Below, one piece after another: positions 15,410 to 30,850 of a DNA stretch of 64,000 nucleotides. The notes below the pieces were generated by a model, which worked only from the letters and a program-made list of their open reading frames with translations, searched no databases and was not told the origin of the DNA. Both the position numbers and the translations under genes were made by a program. Source of the DNA: Terriglobia bacterium (GTDB taxonomy: Bacteria > Acidobacteriota > Terriglobia > Terriglobales > Acidobacteriaceae); NCBI GenBank assembly GCA_020072645.1, contig JAIQGK010000006.1:186001-250000 (forward strand), given 5' to 3'. The stretch's first letter is position 1. Each line of letters begins with the position of its first letter.

Positions 15410-15484
15410 GGCGCTATCGTCTAGGGGTTAGGACGTGAGATTCTCAATCTTAAAACCCGGGTTCGATTCCCGGTAGCGCTACCA
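15410..15484 (+). tRNA. tRNA-Glu (anticodon CTC), island integration site
   Basis: A cloverleaf can be drawn: acceptor 15410-15416 with 15474-15480 (first pair G-U), D-stem GTCT/GGAC, anticodon stem TGAGA/TCTTA with loop TTCTCAA (anticodon CTC), T-arm CCGGG-TTCGATT-CCCGG, discriminator A and encoded CCA. The 3' 35 nt are also the end of the serine recombinase reading frame on the other strand, so this is the left attachment site of the island. Confidence 0.93.
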
Positions 15485-16958
15485 AACCTTCTTTTTTGAT
15501 TGCCTTTGTTCCCATCCCATTGAAAAGTAAGCAGGTTACAGCGGTTCGATATTTCCCGTCTGAATAGGTGACGCCCTCGGGGAATAGAACCTGCTGCAAA
15601 CGCTGCTTCTGCTCAGATGGCGCGGCTTTCCAGAGGTTCGATGCATTCGTTAAAACCATCTCCGCGTAGTCCAGAACGGTCTCTATTTCGATTTCTTCGG
15701 CTTGTGCTTCCCGCAGCTCCATTTCGGCGAGGGTGAGGTCCTCAGTCAGTTTTGCGCGCATTTCCTTATACGTGGATGCATCGATGGCCTTTTGATAGAT
15801 AAATGCTTCTTCCAGCTTGGTCTTGTTTTTGCGCAGCTCCGCGATTTTCCGAGATACAACGCCTTGCACCTGCTGGCTGTCGCCTTGCTTCTTTCGCCAG
15901 ACATCCAGCACGATCTCGCGATACAGGCGCATATACCCGGCGTTCGGTTGCAACTGCCGCATGAACTCCTCAAATTGGCCCTCCATCGCGTCCTTGGTCA
16001 CGCGGATGCAGCCATCCTGACAATGATAGTAGGCGTAGTAGCGATTGCGGCCTTTGGACCAGCTTCCAGTGAGCGCCTCAGCGCAATATCCGCATTGCAC
16101 GAAACCCCGCAGCGGAAAATCGGCATGGCTGCGAGCGCGAGGGGTAACCGATACTGTCCTGCCGTTGAGGATCGCTTGCACCTTGTCGAAGATGGCCTCA
16201 GTCACCAAAGGCTGGAATTTGCCCGAAACGTCAATATTCCATTCAGGCACGACAATGCGACCGGAATAAACCGGCTTCCTGAGCGTCTGTGAGAACGTCT
16301 GAGAACTGAGGAATTTGCCTTTTTTGGTTCGCAACCCAAGCTGAGTAACCTTGCGGAGCACCTGCTCTCTCGTATGAAGGCCGGTCGCGAACTCCTCGAA
16401 TGCTTGGGTAATGAGGGGAGCGGAATGCTCGTCTGGCATGATCGTCTTTGCGCCGGTCGCATCTCGTCCAGCCCGATAACCAAGCGGAGGCGGAAACGTC
16501 CAGCAGCCACTTTGAAGACGCTGCTTCATACCTTTGACGCTCCGCTCGGTTCGTATGTCATTGTCCAACTGAGCGACTCCAGAGAGAACTACCTCCATAA
16601 ATCTCCCGGTTGAGGTCTCGTCAATCGGCTCAGTTACGGAGCGAAGTTGAACGCCCAAGCCGCTCAGAACGGCACGTAATTGAGCGTGATCCGTAGTATT
16701 TCGGGAAAACCTGTCCAGCTTGTGAACCACAACAGCTTTAATGTTTTTGTCTTCCCGACAATATTTGAGCATGGCCTTCAACTCAGTCCGGTTTGCTGTC
16801 TTTGCAGACTCGCCCTCTTCCACAAAGACCCTAGCCACCTTGAATCCCTGCTTCTCGCAATACTCCAGACATGCGGCTTTCTGACCGGCAAGGCTAGTGC
16901 CGCCCTTGGCCTGTTCCTCTGTCGATACGCGGGTATAAATTACGACTCGCTCGGCCAT
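15450..16958 (-). CDS. Large serine recombinase (site-specific integrase)
   Basis: 502 residues. The N-terminal resolvase/invertase catalytic domain carries nucleophile S12 (VIYTRVSTEEQ) and the arginine-rich HKLDRFSRNTTDH region. A recombinase domain (about 170-270) follows, then a zinc ribbon (CGYCAEAL ... YYHCQDGC), a long coiled coil (about 360-440) and a C-terminal tail. The last residues, LVALPGIEPGF, and the TAA stop are encoded by the reverse of tRNA-Glu, so the C-terminus is formed by the attachment site. It follows the HTH gene by 3 nt. Serine integrases seldom target tRNA genes. Confidence 0.93.
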   Translation of the reverse strand: MAERVVIYTRVSTEEQAKGGTSLAGQKAACLEYCEKQGFKVARVFVEEGESAKTANRTELKAMLKYCREDKNIKAVVVHKLDRFSRNTTDHAQLRAVLSGLGVQLRSVTEPIDETSTGRFMEVVLSGVAQLDNDIRTERSVKGMKQRLQSGCWTFPPPLGYRAGRDATGAKTIMPDEHSAPLITQAFEEFATGLHTREQVLRKVTQLGLRTKKGKFLSSQTFSQTLRKPVYSGRIVVPEWNIDVSGKFQPLVTEAIFDKVQAILNGRTVSVTPRARSHADFPLRGFVQCGYCAEALTGSWSKGRNRYYAYYHCQDGCIRVTKDAMEGQFEEFMRQLQPNAGYMRLYREIVLDVWRKKQGDSQQVQGVVSRKIAELRKNKTKLEEAFIYQKAIDASTYKEMRAKLTEDLTLAEMELREAQAEEIEIETVLDYAEMVLTNASNLWKAAPSEQKQRLQQVLFPEGVTYSDGKYRTAVTCLLFNGMGTKAIKKEGLVALPGIEPGF

Positions 16959-16961
16959 GAT

Positions 16962-17201
16962 TTACCTTGCCCTTCCTCTGGCTCTCTTCGGCTCGCGATG
17001 CCGGGTTCTTCGTCCATCGGTAAAACCGTCAACAATCGCCTTTGCTTTAAAGATGTCTTTGTCCTTCCAGAGCCGTACCGTCACCCCGCCCACTCGGGTT
17101 AGCGGAGGAACTGGGATTGTCCCGGCCACGATATAGCGGTTAATGGTCGCCATGCTCACGCCCAACAATTTCGCCGCCTCTCTAGTTGAGTAACTCGCCA
17201 T
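16962..17201 (-). CDS. Small HTH protein, excisionase-like (MerR/HTH_17 type)
   Basis: 79 residues beginning MASYSTREAAKLLGVSMATINRYI, a winged-HTH DNA-binding segment of the excisionase type, followed by VRLWKDKDIFKAK and a basic tail. The ATG at 17201 opens exactly on the domain; the in-frame start at 17213 adds only four residues. The stop lies 3 nt before the recombinase ATG, so the pair is coupled. It is a probable recombination directionality factor, or a transcriptional regulator of the element. Confidence 0.8.
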   Translation of the reverse strand: MASYSTREAAKLLGVSMATINRYIVAGTIPVPPLTRVGGVTVRLWKDKDIFKAKAIVDGFTDGRRTRHREPKRARGRAR

Positions 17202-17237
17202 AGTGATATACACCTATCTCATATATAGCATAAGATG

Positions 17238-18305: not shown

Positions 18306-21059
18306 ATGCCACGCAAGAGCACGACGCCCGCGCGCAGCAAGTCTGCCAAGAGTTACAAGCACCCTGAATCTGAAAGCCCCATGCGGCCCGAGGTCGGGAC
18401 GCAGGCGCAATTCAAGAAGAAGAAAGCGCCGCAAAAGTACCGTTACGATGATTCCCTCGCTCCGTCGCTGGAATGGGACGGGCAGAATCCCGCCCGAGAG
18501 CGAGGCGAGACAAGGATCGCCAGAGCTGAGGCAGAACTCAGCGAGGCCCGAAAGAAGCTCAACGGAAAGCCGGAGGCGAAAGAGGCTGCCGCGCATGTCT
18601 CTGCCGCTCAAAAGGCCGTCGCTGAACTGAAGGCCATGAGCAAGCCCTTCCTGAATTGGGCAGGGAAGGCCGAGCGGCTCTCTTTTGACGTTCCCACGCT
18701 GCCCTTGTTCATTCACGAGCGGCTTTCTACCAAGGCGATTCTGGACACGCTGAAGGGCCACAAGCGAGATAAGCAAACAGACTTGTTCGACCTCTTCGGC
18801 GATCCTCAGCACTCAATCACAGATCAAGTCCTCCGAGCGTACGAACATAAAGACAAATGGGTCAATCGCATGATCCTGGGCGACTCGCTCGTCGTAATGA
18901 ATTCTCTTTTGCGCTACGAGAATCTCGGCGGACAGGTGCAGATGATCTATATCGACCCGCCGTATGGAGTGAAGTTCGGCTCAAACTTCCAGCCGTTTGT
19001 ACGTAATCGAGATGTTAGCCACAACGACGACGATGATATGACTCGCGAACCTGAAATGGTCCAAGCCTATCGAGATACTTGGGAGTTGGGGCTGCACTCG
19101 TATCTAGCGTATCTGCGTGACCGATTTCTTCTGGCCCGTGATTTGCTTTCCATAAGTGGCAGTATCTTTGTCCAGATCAGTGACGAAAACCTTCACCACT
19201 TGCGTGAGTTGCTTGATGAGATATTTGGAAGTGAGAATTTTTGCTCTGTCATAAGCATTAAGAAGACCAGCGGACTTGGCGCTACATTGCTTCAGAGTAC
19301 CCAGGATTTCTTACTCTGGTATGCCAAGGACAAGAGTCACGTAAAGTTCCACCGGCTATTTGCTGATAAAGCCGAAGCCGCCGAAGGTGACTCACATTAC
19401 ACCAGCGATGAATCAGGACGCTTGTACACCCTCAGCGATCTCACAGCACAGAACAACAACGTCCGGTCTTGTCTGTACGACTTCACGTTTGAAGGGCAAG
19501 TCTTCCACCTGCCAAGAGGCAGGCAGTGGAAAACAACCGAAGAGGGGATGAAACGTTTGGTAGAGGCGAAGCGAGTCGTCGCGTCTGGAAATTCGATCCG
19601 ATATAAACGATTTCTCGATGATTTCGCGATGAGTCCAATTACTGATACCTGGCATGACATAGGCGGCAGTGTCCAGAGTCGCTCTGATCCAAAAATTTAT
19701 GTGGTGCAAACTGGTACGACCATCGTCCAGCGTTGTTTGCTAATGACAACCGATCCCGGCGAGTTGGTCCTCGATCCGACTTGCGGGAGTGGTACCACAG
19801 CATATTGCGCAGAAATGTGGGGAAGACGTTGGCTCACTATTGATACGAGTCGGGTACCCCTTGCCCTCGCACGCCAGCGTTTGCTCACCGCAACTTTTCA
19901 TTGGTGGGAATTAACCGATGAAAGCCGAGGCCCCACTGCTGGCTTTCGCTATGAACGTAAGCAAAATCGAAAAGGAGAACACATTGGCGGTATTGTGCCG
20001 CACATAACCCTTGAGTCATTTGCGAAAGATGAACCAGCCGAGGAAGAGGTCATAGTTGATCGACCGGAAGTATTTACAAATATCACGCGGGTTACCGGCC
20101 CGTTCTGCGTCGAGGGCACTATTCCCACTCCCATTGATTGGGAACAGACGAGCGCAAGCTCTTCAGAGACCGATGCGGACCTCTCTTTTGTTGACCGCAT
20201 GATGGAAATTTTGCGGAAATCGCCTGTTCTAAGGTTGGAAGGAAATCGCACTGTAACGCTCAAGAACATCCGTCCACCGGCAAAGAGCCTCTCCCTTTCT
20301 GCCGAGGCCACGCTTAACGGCAGCAATGGAAACGGAAAATCTAAGTCCCTGCCGGAAGCAGTACAGGAAGCAGCCGAAGCCAGCGGCAAGTCATTGCCAT
20401 TCTCACAGAAGACTGTCGCCCTGGTCTTCGGCCCGGAAAATGGAGCAGTGAGCGAGAAGCTCGCATACGAAGCCGCACGGGAAGCCCGCGCTAAAGATTA
20501 TTTCCATCTATACGTGATTGGCTTCGCGATCCAGCCAAACGCACGGCAGCTAATCGAGAAATGCGACGAGGTGGTCGGGATTTCCGCGACCTACATTCAG
20601 GCGACGCCCGACCTGATGATGGGCGACCTGCTCAAGAACATGCGTTCAAGCCAGGTCTTCAGCGTCTGCGGTATGCCTGAGGCTGAATTGCGTCGCGTTA
20701 AACCTCAGAGCAAGGACGACGCGCCGAAATATGAAGTGCAGCTTCTCGGGATGGACGTATTCGACCCTGCGACGATGGAGGTCATTCATCGAAAGGGGGA
20801 AGAGGTCCCGGCATGGTTCCTGGACACGGATTACAACGGCCTCTGCTTTCATGTCTCCCAAGCTTTCTTCCCACGTACCGGCGCATGGGAGAGCCTGAAA
20901 AAAGCTCTCAAGGGAGAATACGAGGAATCCGTCTGGGACCATCTTGCAGGAACCACGAGCACACCTTTTGAAGCCGGAGACCAAATTGCCGTAAAGGTTA
21001 TTGACGACCGAGGGAATGAATTGTTGATCGTGAAAGCTCTGAGCGAGGCAAAGAGATGA
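18306..21059 (+). CDS. Type III restriction-modification DNA methyltransferase (Mod)
   Basis: 917 residues, an N6-adenine methyltransferase of the beta class. The catalytic motif DPPY is at 217-220 (MIYIDPPYGVKFG) and the AdoMet-binding motif LDPTCGSGTTA begins near D490, in the order expected for type III Mod. A lysine-rich leader and a coiled region precede it, and the target-recognition region lies between and after the motifs. The protein is longer than typical Mod (600-700 residues) because of a C-terminal region of about 350 residues after the methylase core. GGAG lies shortly upstream of the ATG. It overlaps res by 4 nt. Confidence 0.93.
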   Translation: MPRKSTTPARSKSAKSYKHPESESPMRPEVGTQAQFKKKKAPQKYRYDDSLAPSLEWDGQNPARERGETRIARAEAELSEARKKLNGKPEAKEAAAHVSAAQKAVAELKAMSKPFLNWAGKAERLSFDVPTLPLFIHERLSTKAILDTLKGHKRDKQTDLFDLFGDPQHSITDQVLRAYEHKDKWVNRMILGDSLVVMNSLLRYENLGGQVQMIYIDPPYGVKFGSNFQPFVRNRDVSHNDDDDMTREPEMVQAYRDTWELGLHSYLAYLRDRFLLARDLLSISGSIFVQISDENLHHLRELLDEIFGSENFCSVISIKKTSGLGATLLQSTQDFLLWYAKDKSHVKFHRLFADKAEAAEGDSHYTSDESGRLYTLSDLTAQNNNVRSCLYDFTFEGQVFHLPRGRQWKTTEEGMKRLVEAKRVVASGNSIRYKRFLDDFAMSPITDTWHDIGGSVQSRSDPKIYVVQTGTTIVQRCLLMTTDPGELVLDPTCGSGTTAYCAEMWGRRWLTIDTSRVPLALARQRLLTATFHWWELTDESRGPTAGFRYERKQNRKGEHIGGIVPHITLESFAKDEPAEEEVIVDRPEVFTNITRVTGPFCVEGTIPTPIDWEQTSASSSETDADLSFVDRMMEILRKSPVLRLEGNRTVTLKNIRPPAKSLSLSAEATLNGSNGNGKSKSLPEAVQEAAEASGKSLPFSQKTVALVFGPENGAVSEKLAYEAAREARAKDYFHLYVIGFAIQPNARQLIEKCDEVVGISATYIQATPDLMMGDLLKNMRSSQVFSVCGMPEAELRRVKPQSKDDAPKYEVQLLGMDVFDPATMEVIHRKGEEVPAWFLDTDYNGLCFHVSQAFFPRTGAWESLKKALKGEYEESVWDHLAGTTSTPFEAGDQIAVKVIDDRGNELLIVKALSEAKR

Positions 21060-24000
21060 GCGGCTACACAGCGCCTGAAGTTGACGAGCCAATTCTCAAT
21101 ACGCCGTTTGAGAAGCCGCTGCGCTACTGGTATATCCAGGAAGGCGAGCCGCCGGTCAAACGCGAAGGCAAGCGCCGGCCAGCGATTGTGTTTCCGCCTC
21201 GCGACCAGCGAGAGCCTTGGCAGACCGATGAAAAATTGCTCAAGGTCTCTCAGGAATATCCCTCGGGGTACGATCTCGCTCTCGTCAATCTAGTTCGCGA
21301 GCGCGTGGAGAACTGGCAGTCGCAAGGTTGTCCTGGAGTGACTCGCACGACGCTTGAACTGATCCAGTGGTGGACACGCGACGGAAGAGAGAAGCGGCTC
21401 TTCTTCGCGCAATTGGAAGCCGCTCTCACAATCATTTTTCTGACCGAAGCGAGAGCCGATTTTCTTCAAGGAATTTCAATACCTCGCGACGAGCCGAGCG
21501 ACGACCGAAAGGCCGAAGGCTATACCGGCTTTCAGCGATACGCCTGCAAGATGGCGACCGGCAGCGGCAAGACTACGGTAATGGGGATGCTTACGGCCTG
21601 GAGCATTCTCAATAAGGTGAACAATCGCAGCGACGCGAGGTTCTCAGACGTGGTCCTTGCTGTTTGTCCAAATGTGACAATCCGGGACCGTCTACAAGAG
21701 CTAAATCCCGAGAGGGGCGAAGCGAGTATCTATCTCAGCCGTGATCTTGTCCCGCCTCATCTCATGCCTTCACTTACACAGGGCAAAGTCCTGGTCACGA
21801 ACTGGCATATCTTTGAACCGCAAACCACGCAAACCGGAGGGGTCGGCGGAAAGGTAATAAAGGCTGGCGTTCCTGTCTGGAGCAAGGAAAAAATCCTCAT
21901 CGGTAGGAAGACTCAGACCGCACGGGGAAAGCGTTATTTCACCTTGGCCGCTCTCGAAGCAATGAAAGCTCAGGGCAAAGTGGACGTGGTTCCCGGCAGC
22001 GAAGAATACGACGAGACCGGCAATTTAGTAAAAGTCGAAATAGGTACGCTGCGGTACGTTGAGAGCGACACATCCGTCATCAATCGTGTGATTGGTCGCG
22101 AGGTTGGCGGCAAACAGAACATCCTTGTTCTGAATGACGAAGCTCATCATGCGTATAGACTTAGACGCGACGAGCCGCAAACCGGAGAAGAGGACGAATT
22201 CGGCGAAACGGAAGAGGCTGACGAGTTTTTCCGCGAGGCCACCGTGTGGATTGATGGCCTCGACAAGATCCAAAAGCTACGCGGCATCAATGTCTGCATA
22301 GACCTCTCAGCAACGCCTTATTTCCTTGGGCGAGTCGGCCAGGAAACAAATAAACCATTTCCCTGGGTCGTGAGTGACTTCGGCCTGATTGACGCCATAG
22401 AAGCCGGACTAGTGAAAATTCCACAACTCGCGGTACGCGACACGACCGGCGCTGAGATACCGGGCTATTTCAATATCTGGCAATGGATTCTGCCGCAACT
22501 GACTCCAGCCGAGCGAGGCGGAAAGAAGGGAAGCCCGAAGCCGGAAGCCATCCTCAAGTTTGCTCATCACCCGATTGCGATCCTAGGCGCGAAATGGGAA
22601 AAGGAACGCGAGGAATGGAAAAAAGAGGGAGTGGACCCGCGTCCCCCAGTTTTCATTCTGGTTTGCAAGAATACGGCAATCGCGAAAGTAATTTATGAGT
22701 GGCTGGCGAATGACGCTGAGCCTGTCGGAATTCCCCCTGCAAAAATAGACGGCTTTCGCAACAAGAACGGTCAGATCAATACCATTCGCGTCGATTCCAA
22801 AGTCGTGCATGAGACCGATACGGGAGAAGCGAAGAGCGACGAATCGCGATGGATGCGAATCACTCTCGACACGGTGGGCAAAATGGATTGGACCCGCGAC
22901 CGGCAGGGAAGGGCGATCTACCCCGAGGGATTTGAAGAACTGGCAAAGAAACTTGAGCGCCCGTTGCATCCTCCCGGACGAGATATTCGCTGCATAGTAA
23001 GCGTCGGAATGCTTACCGAGGGCTGGGACTGCAATACCGTGACTCAGATCGTCGGTTTGCGTCCTTTCATGTCGCAATTGCTCTGCGAACAAGTAGTCGG
23101 ACGCGGACTTCGCCGAGCTAGTTACGAAATCCGCGAAGACGGGAAATTCACGGAAGAAGTCGCTCAGGTCTTCGGAGTGCCTTTTGAGGTTATTCCGTTC
23201 AAAGCTAGCAAGACCGGAACATCAGCCCCAAGAGTTAAGCGGTTTCACGTTCATGCTTTGCCTCAGCGGGCAGAGTTTGAAATCAGATTTCCTCGCGTTG
23301 AAGGTTACACTCAGGCGATTCGTAACAAAGTAACTGTGGACTGGACCAGTGTTCCCAAACTCGTCCTTCAACCTGACCGTATTCCGCCCGAAGTCCAGAT
23401 GAAGGGGCTGAGTGTCAATAACAAAGGGCGATTGTCGCTAATGGGACCGGGACGAATCAGCGACGCATCTTTACAGGAATTTCGCGCTAACCGCAGATTG
23501 CAGGAACTCGTTTTTGATCTGGCAAAGGCATTTACCCGCGACTGTCTCGCGCAGCCACAATGCATAATTCCGAGTCACGTCCTATTCCCGCAACTCGTCC
23601 AGATCGTTTCTCGGTACCTGCAAGCGAGAGTCGAAGTGCGTCCACCGGCAGACCTGAAAGACCTCTTCCTCGCTCCTTATTACGGCTGGCTGGTCGAAAT
23701 TCTGCTGGAAGCCCTGCGGCCCGACACCTCAGCCGGAGAAGCGCCGGAGATTCCACGATATGAATCCACTCGCGGCCCTGGTTCAACCGCAGACGTGGAT
23801 TACTGGACGAGCCGCGATCCTGTCGAAGTGCTTCGCAGTCACGTCAATTACGTGGTTCCCGATACCAAGAGATGGGAGCAGTCTGCCGCTTACTACATTG
23901 ACAAACATCCGGCAGTGCATTCATTCGTCAAAAACGCGGGACTCGGCTTCGCCATTCCGTACCTGTACAACGGCCAAATGCACGATTACATGCCGGACTT

Positions 24001-24211
24001 CATCGTTCGCCTGAAAAGCGACTCGCCCGTTCACATGATCTTGGAAACCAAGGGATACGACCCCCTGGAGGAAGTGAAGAAAGACGCGGCAAACCGCTGG
24101 GTTTCGGCTGTGAATGCTGAGGGAAGCTATGGAAAATGGTTTTATCGTGTCGTGAAAAAGACTACCGATGTTTCAGGGACGCTTTCTGAGCAGCAAATTG
24201 AAAGCGCTTAG
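21056..24211 (+). CDS. Type III restriction enzyme, Res (DEAD/DEAH helicase-nuclease)
   Basis: 1051 residues. A superfamily 2 motor: Walker A MATGSGKTT (from about residue 166), a DEAH-type motif NDEAHHAYR (D361), SATPYF (motif III), and motif VI-like QVVGRGLRR. The C-terminal PD-(D/E)xK nuclease reads DYMPDFIVRL ... ILETKGYD (D about 981, E/K about 997-999). Res cleaves DNA after translocation from two unmethylated sites together with Mod. The start ATGA overlaps the mod stop. The protein is intact, with no frameshift. Confidence 0.93.
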   Translation: MSGYTAPEVDEPILNTPFEKPLRYWYIQEGEPPVKREGKRRPAIVFPPRDQREPWQTDEKLLKVSQEYPSGYDLALVNLVRERVENWQSQGCPGVTRTTLELIQWWTRDGREKRLFFAQLEAALTIIFLTEARADFLQGISIPRDEPSDDRKAEGYTGFQRYACKMATGSGKTTVMGMLTAWSILNKVNNRSDARFSDVVLAVCPNVTIRDRLQELNPERGEASIYLSRDLVPPHLMPSLTQGKVLVTNWHIFEPQTTQTGGVGGKVIKAGVPVWSKEKILIGRKTQTARGKRYFTLAALEAMKAQGKVDVVPGSEEYDETGNLVKVEIGTLRYVESDTSVINRVIGREVGGKQNILVLNDEAHHAYRLRRDEPQTGEEDEFGETEEADEFFREATVWIDGLDKIQKLRGINVCIDLSATPYFLGRVGQETNKPFPWVVSDFGLIDAIEAGLVKIPQLAVRDTTGAEIPGYFNIWQWILPQLTPAERGGKKGSPKPEAILKFAHHPIAILGAKWEKEREEWKKEGVDPRPPVFILVCKNTAIAKVIYEWLANDAEPVGIPPAKIDGFRNKNGQINTIRVDSKVVHETDTGEAKSDESRWMRITLDTVGKMDWTRDRQGRAIYPEGFEELAKKLERPLHPPGRDIRCIVSVGMLTEGWDCNTVTQIVGLRPFMSQLLCEQVVGRGLRRASYEIREDGKFTEEVAQVFGVPFEVIPFKASKTGTSAPRVKRFHVHALPQRAEFEIRFPRVEGYTQAIRNKVTVDWTSVPKLVLQPDRIPPEVQMKGLSVNNKGRLSLMGPGRISDASLQEFRANRRLQELVFDLAKAFTRDCLAQPQCIIPSHVLFPQLVQIVSRYLQARVEVRPPADLKDLFLAPYYGWLVEILLEALRPDTSAGEAPEIPRYESTRGPGSTADVDYWTSRDPVEVLRSHVNYVVPDTKRWEQSAAYYIDKHPAVHSFVKNAGLGFAIPYLYNGQMHDYMPDFIVRLKSDSPVHMILETKGYDPLEEVKKDAANRWVSAVNAEGSYGKWFYRVVKKTTDVSGTLSEQQIESA

Positions 24212-29710: not shown

Positions 29711-29953
29711 TTAAGGTTTGGACTTGCGTCCCGTTTGTTTCTTTCGTTGTTTCTGATACCGGGTCTTTCTGCCGTTGGCAATCTTCGGCAGTAAGGCCCG
29801 GACTCGTTCTATGTCCTCTTCTGTCCAGCCGTGCAAACTGGCGCTTCCAACCTTCATGATCTCGGGTGCTGGCACTTTTTTCGATGCGACATACCGGCTG
29901 AGAGTCTTGGGAGCCAATCCGAGTTTTGCAGCGGCTTGCCTTGTAGAGAACAT
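29711..29953 (-). CDS. Small HTH DNA-binding protein (excisionase-like)
   Basis: 80 residues starting MFSTRQAAAKLGLAPKTLSRYV, an HTH_17/excisionase-type fold, followed by GWTEEDIERVRALLPK and a highly basic tail. It is similar in plan, though not in detail, to the HTH protein at 16962-17201 at the opposite end of the island. It could be the directionality factor of the element whose recombinase is now a remnant at 30721. Confidence 0.75.
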   Translation of the reverse strand: MFSTRQAAAKLGLAPKTLSRYVASKKVPAPEIMKVGSASLHGWTEEDIERVRALLPKIANGRKTRYQKQRKKQTGRKSKP

Positions 29954-30500: not shown

Positions 30501-30720
30501 TCCCTCATCCCGTTTTGTTAGTGAAAAAATGCCCGTCTTCGGAGGACCAATAGAGGTTCAATGCAGTCTTGGGAGCAGGGAAGATGCGGCAACCGGCGTC
30601 TTTGGCCGTCCTGGGGCGCTTTCCTGAGAACTCTAGGCTGCACGGAAGAGGCCCTCACGCCTCAAGAGGTCCATTTCCCGCAAGCCAGTGACAATTTGGT
30701 TCCAACCGGCAACCGTTTGG

Positions 30721-30850
30721 GCTACCAACCCTTCCTTTGCGACCGCGTTTGTTTATTCCACTGAAAAGCAAGCAAGTTACAGCGGTTCGATAATTTCCTT
30801 CGGAATAGTCACGCCCTGCGCGCCAAGCTCGCCTCGGTTCTGGTACATCA
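30721..30850 (-). pseudogene. Remnant of a serine recombinase C-terminus (island right boundary)
   Basis: Read on the minus strand, this segment encodes YSEGNYRTAVTCLLFSG, matching YSDGKYRTAVTCLLFNG near the C-terminus of the intact recombinase (about 15510-15570). The nucleotide similarity runs from GCTACCAA (30721-30728, also 15478-15485) for about 95 nt. Upstream the match continues only in a different frame (GAQGVT versus FPEGVT), so the copy is frameshifted, and the rest of the gene is missing. It is not identical to the intact gene and therefore derives from a related, older element. Confidence 0.75.

Follow-up and report, generated by a model that had tools for sequence, protein, structure and literature searches.

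The large serine integrases of A118/LI, TP901-1, Bxb1 and phiC31 combine Resolvase, Recombinase and zinc-ribbon domains, as does the recombinase described here, which shares with them a 5-bp shift of the zinc-ribbon (ZD) motif and gives profile matches to the solved TP901-1, A118 and phiC31 integrases. The block on reversal of serine integration is normally credited to a separate directionality factor. In serine integrases the ZD motif of attP is displaced outward by 5 bp relative to that of attB (PMC3783163). tRNA genes are common attB sites in the available portion of the Integrase-On-Demand paper (PMC12884075), and in the accessible sections of a Mycobacterium (M. abscessus) survey the tRNA attB sites belong to tyrosine integrases, the serine enzymes being found elsewhere (PMC10654092). 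A further precedent comes from mycobacteriophage BPs, whose attP lies inside the repressor gene (PMC4557955); integration shortens the C-terminus of the product, and the long free form carries an ssrA-like degradation tag and is degraded.

The locus analyzed here compares with each of these systems in a different way. Unlike A118/LI, TP901-1, Bxb1 and phiC31, its recombinase family targets the T-loop and acceptor end of tRNA genes of many isotypes, and the gene overlaps its own att site, with the consequence that integration is predicted to exchange the C-terminus of the enzyme. Like BPs, it has an attP within a reading frame and, by its sequence, a C-terminus that integration would change; unlike BPs, the integrase itself would be altered, with a host tRNA supplying the new end, and most free tails lack Ala-Ala. 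As in the islands of tyrosine integrases, insertion is at the 3′ part of a tRNA gene, which is left intact, but the enzyme is a serine recombinase and the ends share approximately 7-9 nt rather than tens of nucleotides. The best NCBIfam matches are CcrB and XisF, over the N-terminal ~300 residues, with scores far below both cut-offs (126.9 against 900 bits and 95.2 against 375). CcrB and XisF have targets other than those of this recombinase. The tRNA attB list in the available portion of PMC12884075 contains no case of a tail-exchanging serine integrase, and a literature search, conducted mostly outside the subscription literature, returned no paper describing an integrase that trades its own C-terminus when it integrates. 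Judged against these partly accessible sources, the domain order, the att rule and an integration-exchanged C-terminus (the BPs repressor) are known, and an integrase that swaps its own tail by way of a tRNA appears to be new.

The window, the whole stretch of 64,000 nucleotides from a Terriglobia bacterium that we analyzed, contains a recombinase gene on the minus strand (15450..16958) that encodes 502 amino acids in its integrated form and ends ...KKEGLVALPGIEPGF-TAA. Its tail, LPGIEPGF, is supplied by an intact tRNA-Glu(CTC) gene on the plus strand (15410..15484), the integration target, which provides the attB-left half and the core; the two overlap in antisense over 35 nt (15450-15484). 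An earlier note on this DNA had placed the end of a large serine recombinase frame in an intact tRNA-Glu(CTC), within its last 35 nt. The open reading frame call and ARAGORN agree with that placement, and the label is correct, since Resolvase (1.7e-34), Recombinase (1.5e-11) and Zn_ribbon_recom (1.6e-5) all exceed the curated Pfam cut-offs. R10 and S12, the latter presumably the catalytic serine, are among the residues invariant in 15 relatives. The host genome (42 contigs) holds a single full-length copy of the recombinase and two weak, distant matches, and one full copy of the tRNA-Glu(CTC) gene was found in it. Elsewhere in the same genome (L002, C5:224442-228062), a broken related recombinase lies beside a tRNA-Pro(GGG) gene that is intact and is accompanied by a partial copy of 27 nt; it represents an older insertion.

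When the tRNA region was compared with the window by blast, the recombinase's last codons turned up a second time, in decayed form, at 30713-30818, and the decayed 3′ end of a related recombinase occupies 30728..30818 on the minus strand. To the left of this remnant stands TTTGGTTCCAACCGGCAACCGTTTGGGCTACCA, the last seven letters of which are the 3′ end of tRNA-Glu and the remainder of which is not tRNA. The two ends of the element therefore share a core, GCTACCA, at 15478..15484 on the attL side, with the crossover somewhere within it, and at 30721..30727 on the right (both plus strand); the far end of the element, 30698-30727, is 15,243 bp away from the tRNA end. The proposed attB recognition (zinc-ribbon) motif is the T-loop, GGTTCGAT (15460..15467, plus strand), which starts 25 nt from the CCA end, whereas the attP-left motif, GGTTCCAA (30698..30705, plus strand; half-site GGTTCnAA), starts 30 nt from the end of the core. 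The 5-bp shift of the ZD motif between attP and attB is thus present in this element, as read from its left half-sites. Because that outward shift distinguishes attP from attB, we infer that the far end is attR, composed of the attP-left half and the old right flank, and that the tRNA is attL. No long direct tRNA repeat of the tyrosine type was found at the right end within the window. The earlier note had proposed that the recombinase's element is inserted at the tRNA, and the right end now completes that picture; an attachment site elsewhere was also sought, and the one identified lies at the tRNA.

The same arrangement recurs in related elements. On the far sides of those in G137, G344, G039 and G168, GTTCnAA or ATTCnAA occurs at one constant spacing from the terminal nucleotides of the respective tRNA, starting 30 nt from the CCA end as in the window. 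We searched 31 elements with island sequence, a part of the matches from a 398-genome search, for the terminal 6 nt of the tRNA belonging to each element, with TTCnA fixed at 28 nt, and found a right end of the predicted kind in 19 of them (21 sites in total); resampled islands gave 0.76 sites per set on average and at most 3 in 50 sets. Five elements had suggested the rule, and the fresh test is accordingly the 14 successes among the 26 others. Other offsets from 20 to 39 yielded 0-2 sites, except for 6 at offset 23, which is the geometry of the tRNA itself. When T-arm and attP-left were matched at every shift, the peak fell at +5, some of the 12 compared positions belonging to the search motif. 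A right end of the predicted kind was absent from 12 of the 31 (G007, G026, G432a, G048, G317, G038, G085, G147, G285, G129, G235 and G116), of which G007 and G026 lie near contig starts. Measured to the nearest site, the elements span 1.8 to 18.3 kb; the smallest value, that of G296 by its predicted right end, counts against the overall reading. Two attP-like right ends stand behind one tRNA-Pro both in G040 (L183, minus strand, 11326 and 11419) and in G149 (L187, 1582 and 16010), a pattern that fits the one expected of tandem insertions (accretion). G137 has a recombinase remnant beyond attR, as the window does, and these remnants fit earlier insertions at the same tRNA.

Since the core precedes the last codons of the recombinase, the gene in its integrated state terminates within the tRNA, and the circle form would read into attP-left. 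When the ends of the window's element are joined in silico, the reading frame continues through attP into another tail, predicted to be LVAQTVAGWNQIVTGLREMDLLRREGLFRAA. The attP-left frame (30633..30727, minus strand; stop codon 30633-30635) would encode the free-form tail ...QTVAGWNQIVTGLREMDLLRREGLFRAA, and 8 tRNA-encoded residues replace 28. The signature of free tails in the window's clade is SWNQ...L...L. Predicted circle tails are LVVQAVASWNRIMNCLQEMTLLSK... and LASHLAVSWNQTLEWLKQLNTLRNSCD (G137a and G137b), LASHLFENWNQTMQYLASMAQFKQADPLG (G168), LVSQETTSWNTLFKELHLLDSFRR... (G432b), LVALFRHYWNELAHDIRSGI (G039), LASPGTLSLNQVG (G436), MVRPSSASLNSLAELLRQAQPLY... (G296) and, in G001, G344 and G160, L[AV]SL[TS][ST]QSLNQF...AEALS.EIASI.... 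The tails of G436 and G039 are short, extending 10 and 17 residues beyond L[AV][SA], and the final residues of free tails are without conservation; a minority (the window, the phage contig L258 and one of two G149 sites) end in Ala-Ala. G397 has a different frame at the core, and its circle tail still ends LLKWLSNLDLLRVAGL, like the IVTGLREMDLLRREGL of the window. In the tRNA-Pro clade, the circle tails of all seven elements (nine sites) read WS[AG]L.[DEN]DFRT... (WSALxDDFRT), and the integrated tails WSGRxDxNxRPxxPxxxALPG in six of the seven, with WSGRLDSN in G289. Across isotypes and clades, integrated-state tails run from 8 to over 30 residues and vary in sequence.

Uncut tails also occur naturally. 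The recombinase of L258, a 42,361-bp IMG/VR contig with tail-fibre and baseplate genes, shares 48% identity with that of the window over the best segment and ends MVDLRMPTWNHVNTFLRHFTPLAA; its GGTTCCAA lies exactly 30 nt from a tRNA-like ...GGTCCACCA, and no tRNA was found within the 13.7 kb examined. On a 3.6-kb contig (L163), a clade-B recombinase runs uncut through attP as EEWSALVDDFRTFWGSDLSLTLVRKYIADRTQST. The L258 gene is split by a frameshift and the ends of the L163 contig do not overlap, and we therefore regard both only as candidate free elements. A sister clade outside tRNAs (L126, L128, L129 and L130) has the one-piece ending SW[NH]QLA.E...L..I, to which a fifth row, L012, fits only loosely. 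AlphaFold2 models a helix at residues 496-514 in the L126 tail (block pLDDT 56, 83 and 74); for the C-terminal half of L258, the tail has a pLDDT below 50.

The attP-left DNA is constrained as coding sequence in G001, G344 and G160, where, in the integrated state, over 5 kb separate it from the 3′ end of the recombinase gene. Differences by codon position over 28 codons are 1:6:10, 1:6:14 and 0:3:12 in these three frames, with pN/pS values of 0.21, 0.17 and 0.08, respectively. In codons 11-28, position-3 differences make up 8/12, 10/15 and 10/12, an excess that extends beyond the motif. A hydrophobic residue occupies +7 in 11 of 12 tails and +13 in 10 of 11. An HMM of natural tails, run over six frames, placed 5 of 19 attP-left frames in the best ~40 of 26,286 segments, none of them significant. 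Part of the WNQ conservation may be a by-product of the DNA motif that encodes it. Taken from sequence comparison, the evidence indicates that the alternative tail is real, in that it exists in nature and is under codon-level constraint, and that integration would exchange a conserved C-terminal helix for eight residues encoded by the tRNA. The earlier suggestion that insertion fixes the C-terminus of the recombinase and that excision would change it is borne out at this level by the circle frame and the natural uncut tails.

Protein searches found matches to the recombinase in 19 of 100 related genomes and in 78 of 398 in a larger set. The 3′ end of the gene lies repeatedly antisense in a tRNA: Glu(CTC), Glu(TTC), Gln, Ala, Asn, Pro (three anticodons), Met, Arg or Ser. 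A tree was built from 70 distinct rows, leaving out near-identical ones and any shorter than 440 amino acids. In it, 49 recombinases end antisense in or at a tRNA or its 3′ part, spanning eight isotypes and two clades; the count is the 50 tRNA labels minus L163, which is an attP form, and labels were assigned by hand for L122, L123, L142, L157, L024, L169 and L163. All 23 rows of clade A, which includes the window, are at tRNAs (Glu, Gln, Arg, Pro, Met, Ala). Clade B has 28 rows (Pro, Asn, Gln, Arg, Met, Ser), one of them without a tRNA label and one (L163) the attP form. The non-tRNA rows form separate groups, five of them sister to clade A. The nine labels require 13 changes on the tree against a mean of 39.7 when shuffled (as low in 0 of 200 shuffles); target therefore follows enzyme descent, with several switches of isotype. 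Among 360 other reading frames with 300 codons or more, drawn from 80 loci, a single one ends inside an antisense tRNA, and its locus also holds a broken relative of the recombinase. The overlap of recombinase and tRNA is no accident and exceeds chance. tRNA genes are the regular target of this family, probably because its attB motif is the T-loop common to tRNAs. The generalization in the earlier note, that tRNA genes are usually targets of tyrosine integrases and large serine recombinases mostly use protein genes, does not hold for the window's family, with its 49 of 70 rows at tRNAs.

The habit of overlapping a tRNA reaches other phyla. On a Legionella adelaidensis plasmid (NZ_LR134433; L270, 1495-2994), a distant serine recombinase ends antisense in tRNA-Asn, and on a faecal phage-like contig (MT837677; L272, from 847) another overlaps tRNA-Leu. 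Phage and plasmid collections contained no close relative of the window's recombinase, every match having less than 60% identity, and a scan of a genome-contig collection gave one distant match. Scans of viral contigs returned three loci with the clade alignment, two with L120 and one, a previously found locus, with L127; there was no match with L153 and none with the attP pattern.

No empty tRNA site was found in relatives at the four loci tried (G006, G344, G289 and G039). G006 is colinear with the window up to 2 nt past the tRNA; it was rejected as an empty site, since it continues with chromosomal genes that the host genome carries on other contigs and its right flank also lies elsewhere, so that it is rearranged. 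The right flank of G344 was matched in 17 of 20 genomes, including its own, and the 11 loci scanned, out of 20, contained no tRNA. For G289, matches in 9 of 41 genomes were all weak except its own and revealed no empty site; G039 was matched from base 423-424 on in five genomes, without a tRNA-Gln within the adjacent 20 kb (8.6 kb in one). At G004:C8, G016:C14, G019:C2 and G035:C12, partial copies of tRNA-Glu, 37-56 nt long, lie 1-15 kb away from the intact gene; these are probably tyrosine-integrase islands at the same hotspot.

A second mode of tRNA-Glu use breaks the gene at the anticodon loop. In G160 (two places; L122 and L192), G129 (L144) and G397:C432 (L150), another, similar attP-left arm, approximately CCGTnCCGTCTAGTTTCAATAAGTTAC-N13-ACTTTCACGG, stands before a tRNA-Glu 3′ half that starts at the anticodon loop. 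In G129 and G397:C432 the recombinase tail is VGVPDGI and the overlap 22 nt. Since the stop codon there lies in the half of the tRNA that accompanies the recombinase, the C-terminus would stay unchanged, and tail exchange therefore belongs to some clades and not to tRNA targeting as such.

We consider it highly probable that the window holds a 15.2-kb element with type III-like restriction-modification cargo, inserted in tRNA-Glu by its own serine recombinase, and that integration swaps the C-terminus of that enzyme. The recombinase would recognize as attB the T-loop and 3′ acceptor end common to tRNAs, with the attP motif 5 bp further out, and a crossover within the last ~7 nt of the tRNA would leave it intact. 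That the exchange occurs in the shared core, and what it yields, follow by analogy from established serine-integrase chemistry, as does excision with a directionality factor, perhaps the product of the HTH_17 gene at 16962-17213. The recombinase gene would span attP, its free form ending in the conserved helical tail (SWNQ...L...L); on integration, the tail-coding DNA would be stranded at the far end of the element, and the gene would acquire eight tRNA-encoded residues and a stop codon instead. It is very improbable, by comparison, that annotation produced the overlap by accident, with an ordinary intergenic recombinase simply running into a tRNA on an island that does not move or that a tyrosine integrase put in place. 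tRNA genes are the usual sites of tyrosine integrases, and the partial tRNA-Glu copies of G004, G016, G019 and G035 do look tyrosine-type, but the geometry of the window is common to 49 of 70 relatives against 1 of 360 other long frames, its far end carries both the core and the 5-bp-shifted motif, and a Pfam scan of the 10 other island genes detected no tyrosine recombinase domain. We also think it improbable, if less so, that the attP-left frame is conserved as a DNA binding site only and looks coding merely in consequence. In frame, GGTTCCAA does read WN(Q), and the motif of the tRNA-Pro clade encodes DDFRT, as such a reading would have it; the third-position excess in codons 11-28, the hydrophobic residues at +7 and +13, and the same tail at the normal gene end of the sister clade all point instead to a translated tail.

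What the exchanged tail does is a separate matter. The long form, produced in the incoming circle, would be the integrating enzyme, and loss of the last helix would make the resident enzyme different. The short form may be weaker, locking the element in, or poor at re-integration, favoring a clean exit, or more stable, and where the free tail ends in Ala-Ala that end could act as a degradation tag. We suggest, as a possibility that falls well short of an even chance, that the long form serves integration and that the short form is unlike it in activity, stability or direction and so marks the enzyme as integrated. The broader proposal, that T-loop-reading tRNA serine integrases make two isoforms by their own reaction and that loss of the helix alters direction, activity or half-life as a one-gene memory of integration, is likewise tentative. 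There is an even chance that the same anatomy operates without a switch, with attP placed over the last codons for compactness, the swapped tail tolerated, and the free tail an aid to integration only. Integrated tails vary in length and sequence with no conservation beyond the tRNA's own, and the anticodon-loop mode uses tRNAs with no change of tail, both as expected if the resident tail is of no consequence. Against this, a constrained tail is lost with every integration and the resident enzyme is always a different protein; irrelevance of the loss to excision is possible, but not obvious.

If the exchanged tail does act as a switch, an enzyme that rewrites its own C-terminus on integration would constitute a second layer of directionality, and one that is directly testable. 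Reading of the T-loop, common to tRNAs, suggests a route by which one recombinase family can pass between tRNA isotypes. The core and the 5-bp-shifted GTTCnAA provide a simple rule for locating the elusive ends of serine-integrase islands. Caution is also warranted with annotated recombinase C-termini such as ...GFEP... or ...LRPPGPEP..., which are possibly tRNA antisense and not the native tail.

The remaining genes of the element include two small helix-turn-helix proteins. The 83-residue HTH_17 protein encoded just upstream of the recombinase (16962..17213, minus strand; Pfam 1.1e-6) is, as a guess, a candidate directionality factor; a conserved factor of this kind was considered and rejected, the window's HTH gene standing beside the recombinase in only 2 of 76 loci (the window and G007). 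An 80-residue HTH_17-like protein lies near the right end (29711..29953, minus strand; E 7.8e-5, under the Pfam cut-off). The cargo consists of a type III-like DNA methyltransferase, Mod (18306..21059, plus strand), and a type III-like restriction subunit, Res (21056..24211, plus strand; weak ResIII 4.6e-6, REase_III 1.3e-7). Cargo may be shared between elements: a stretch of the tRNA-Pro island of G116 (L190/L132) reads, by eye, like the Mod gene of the window.
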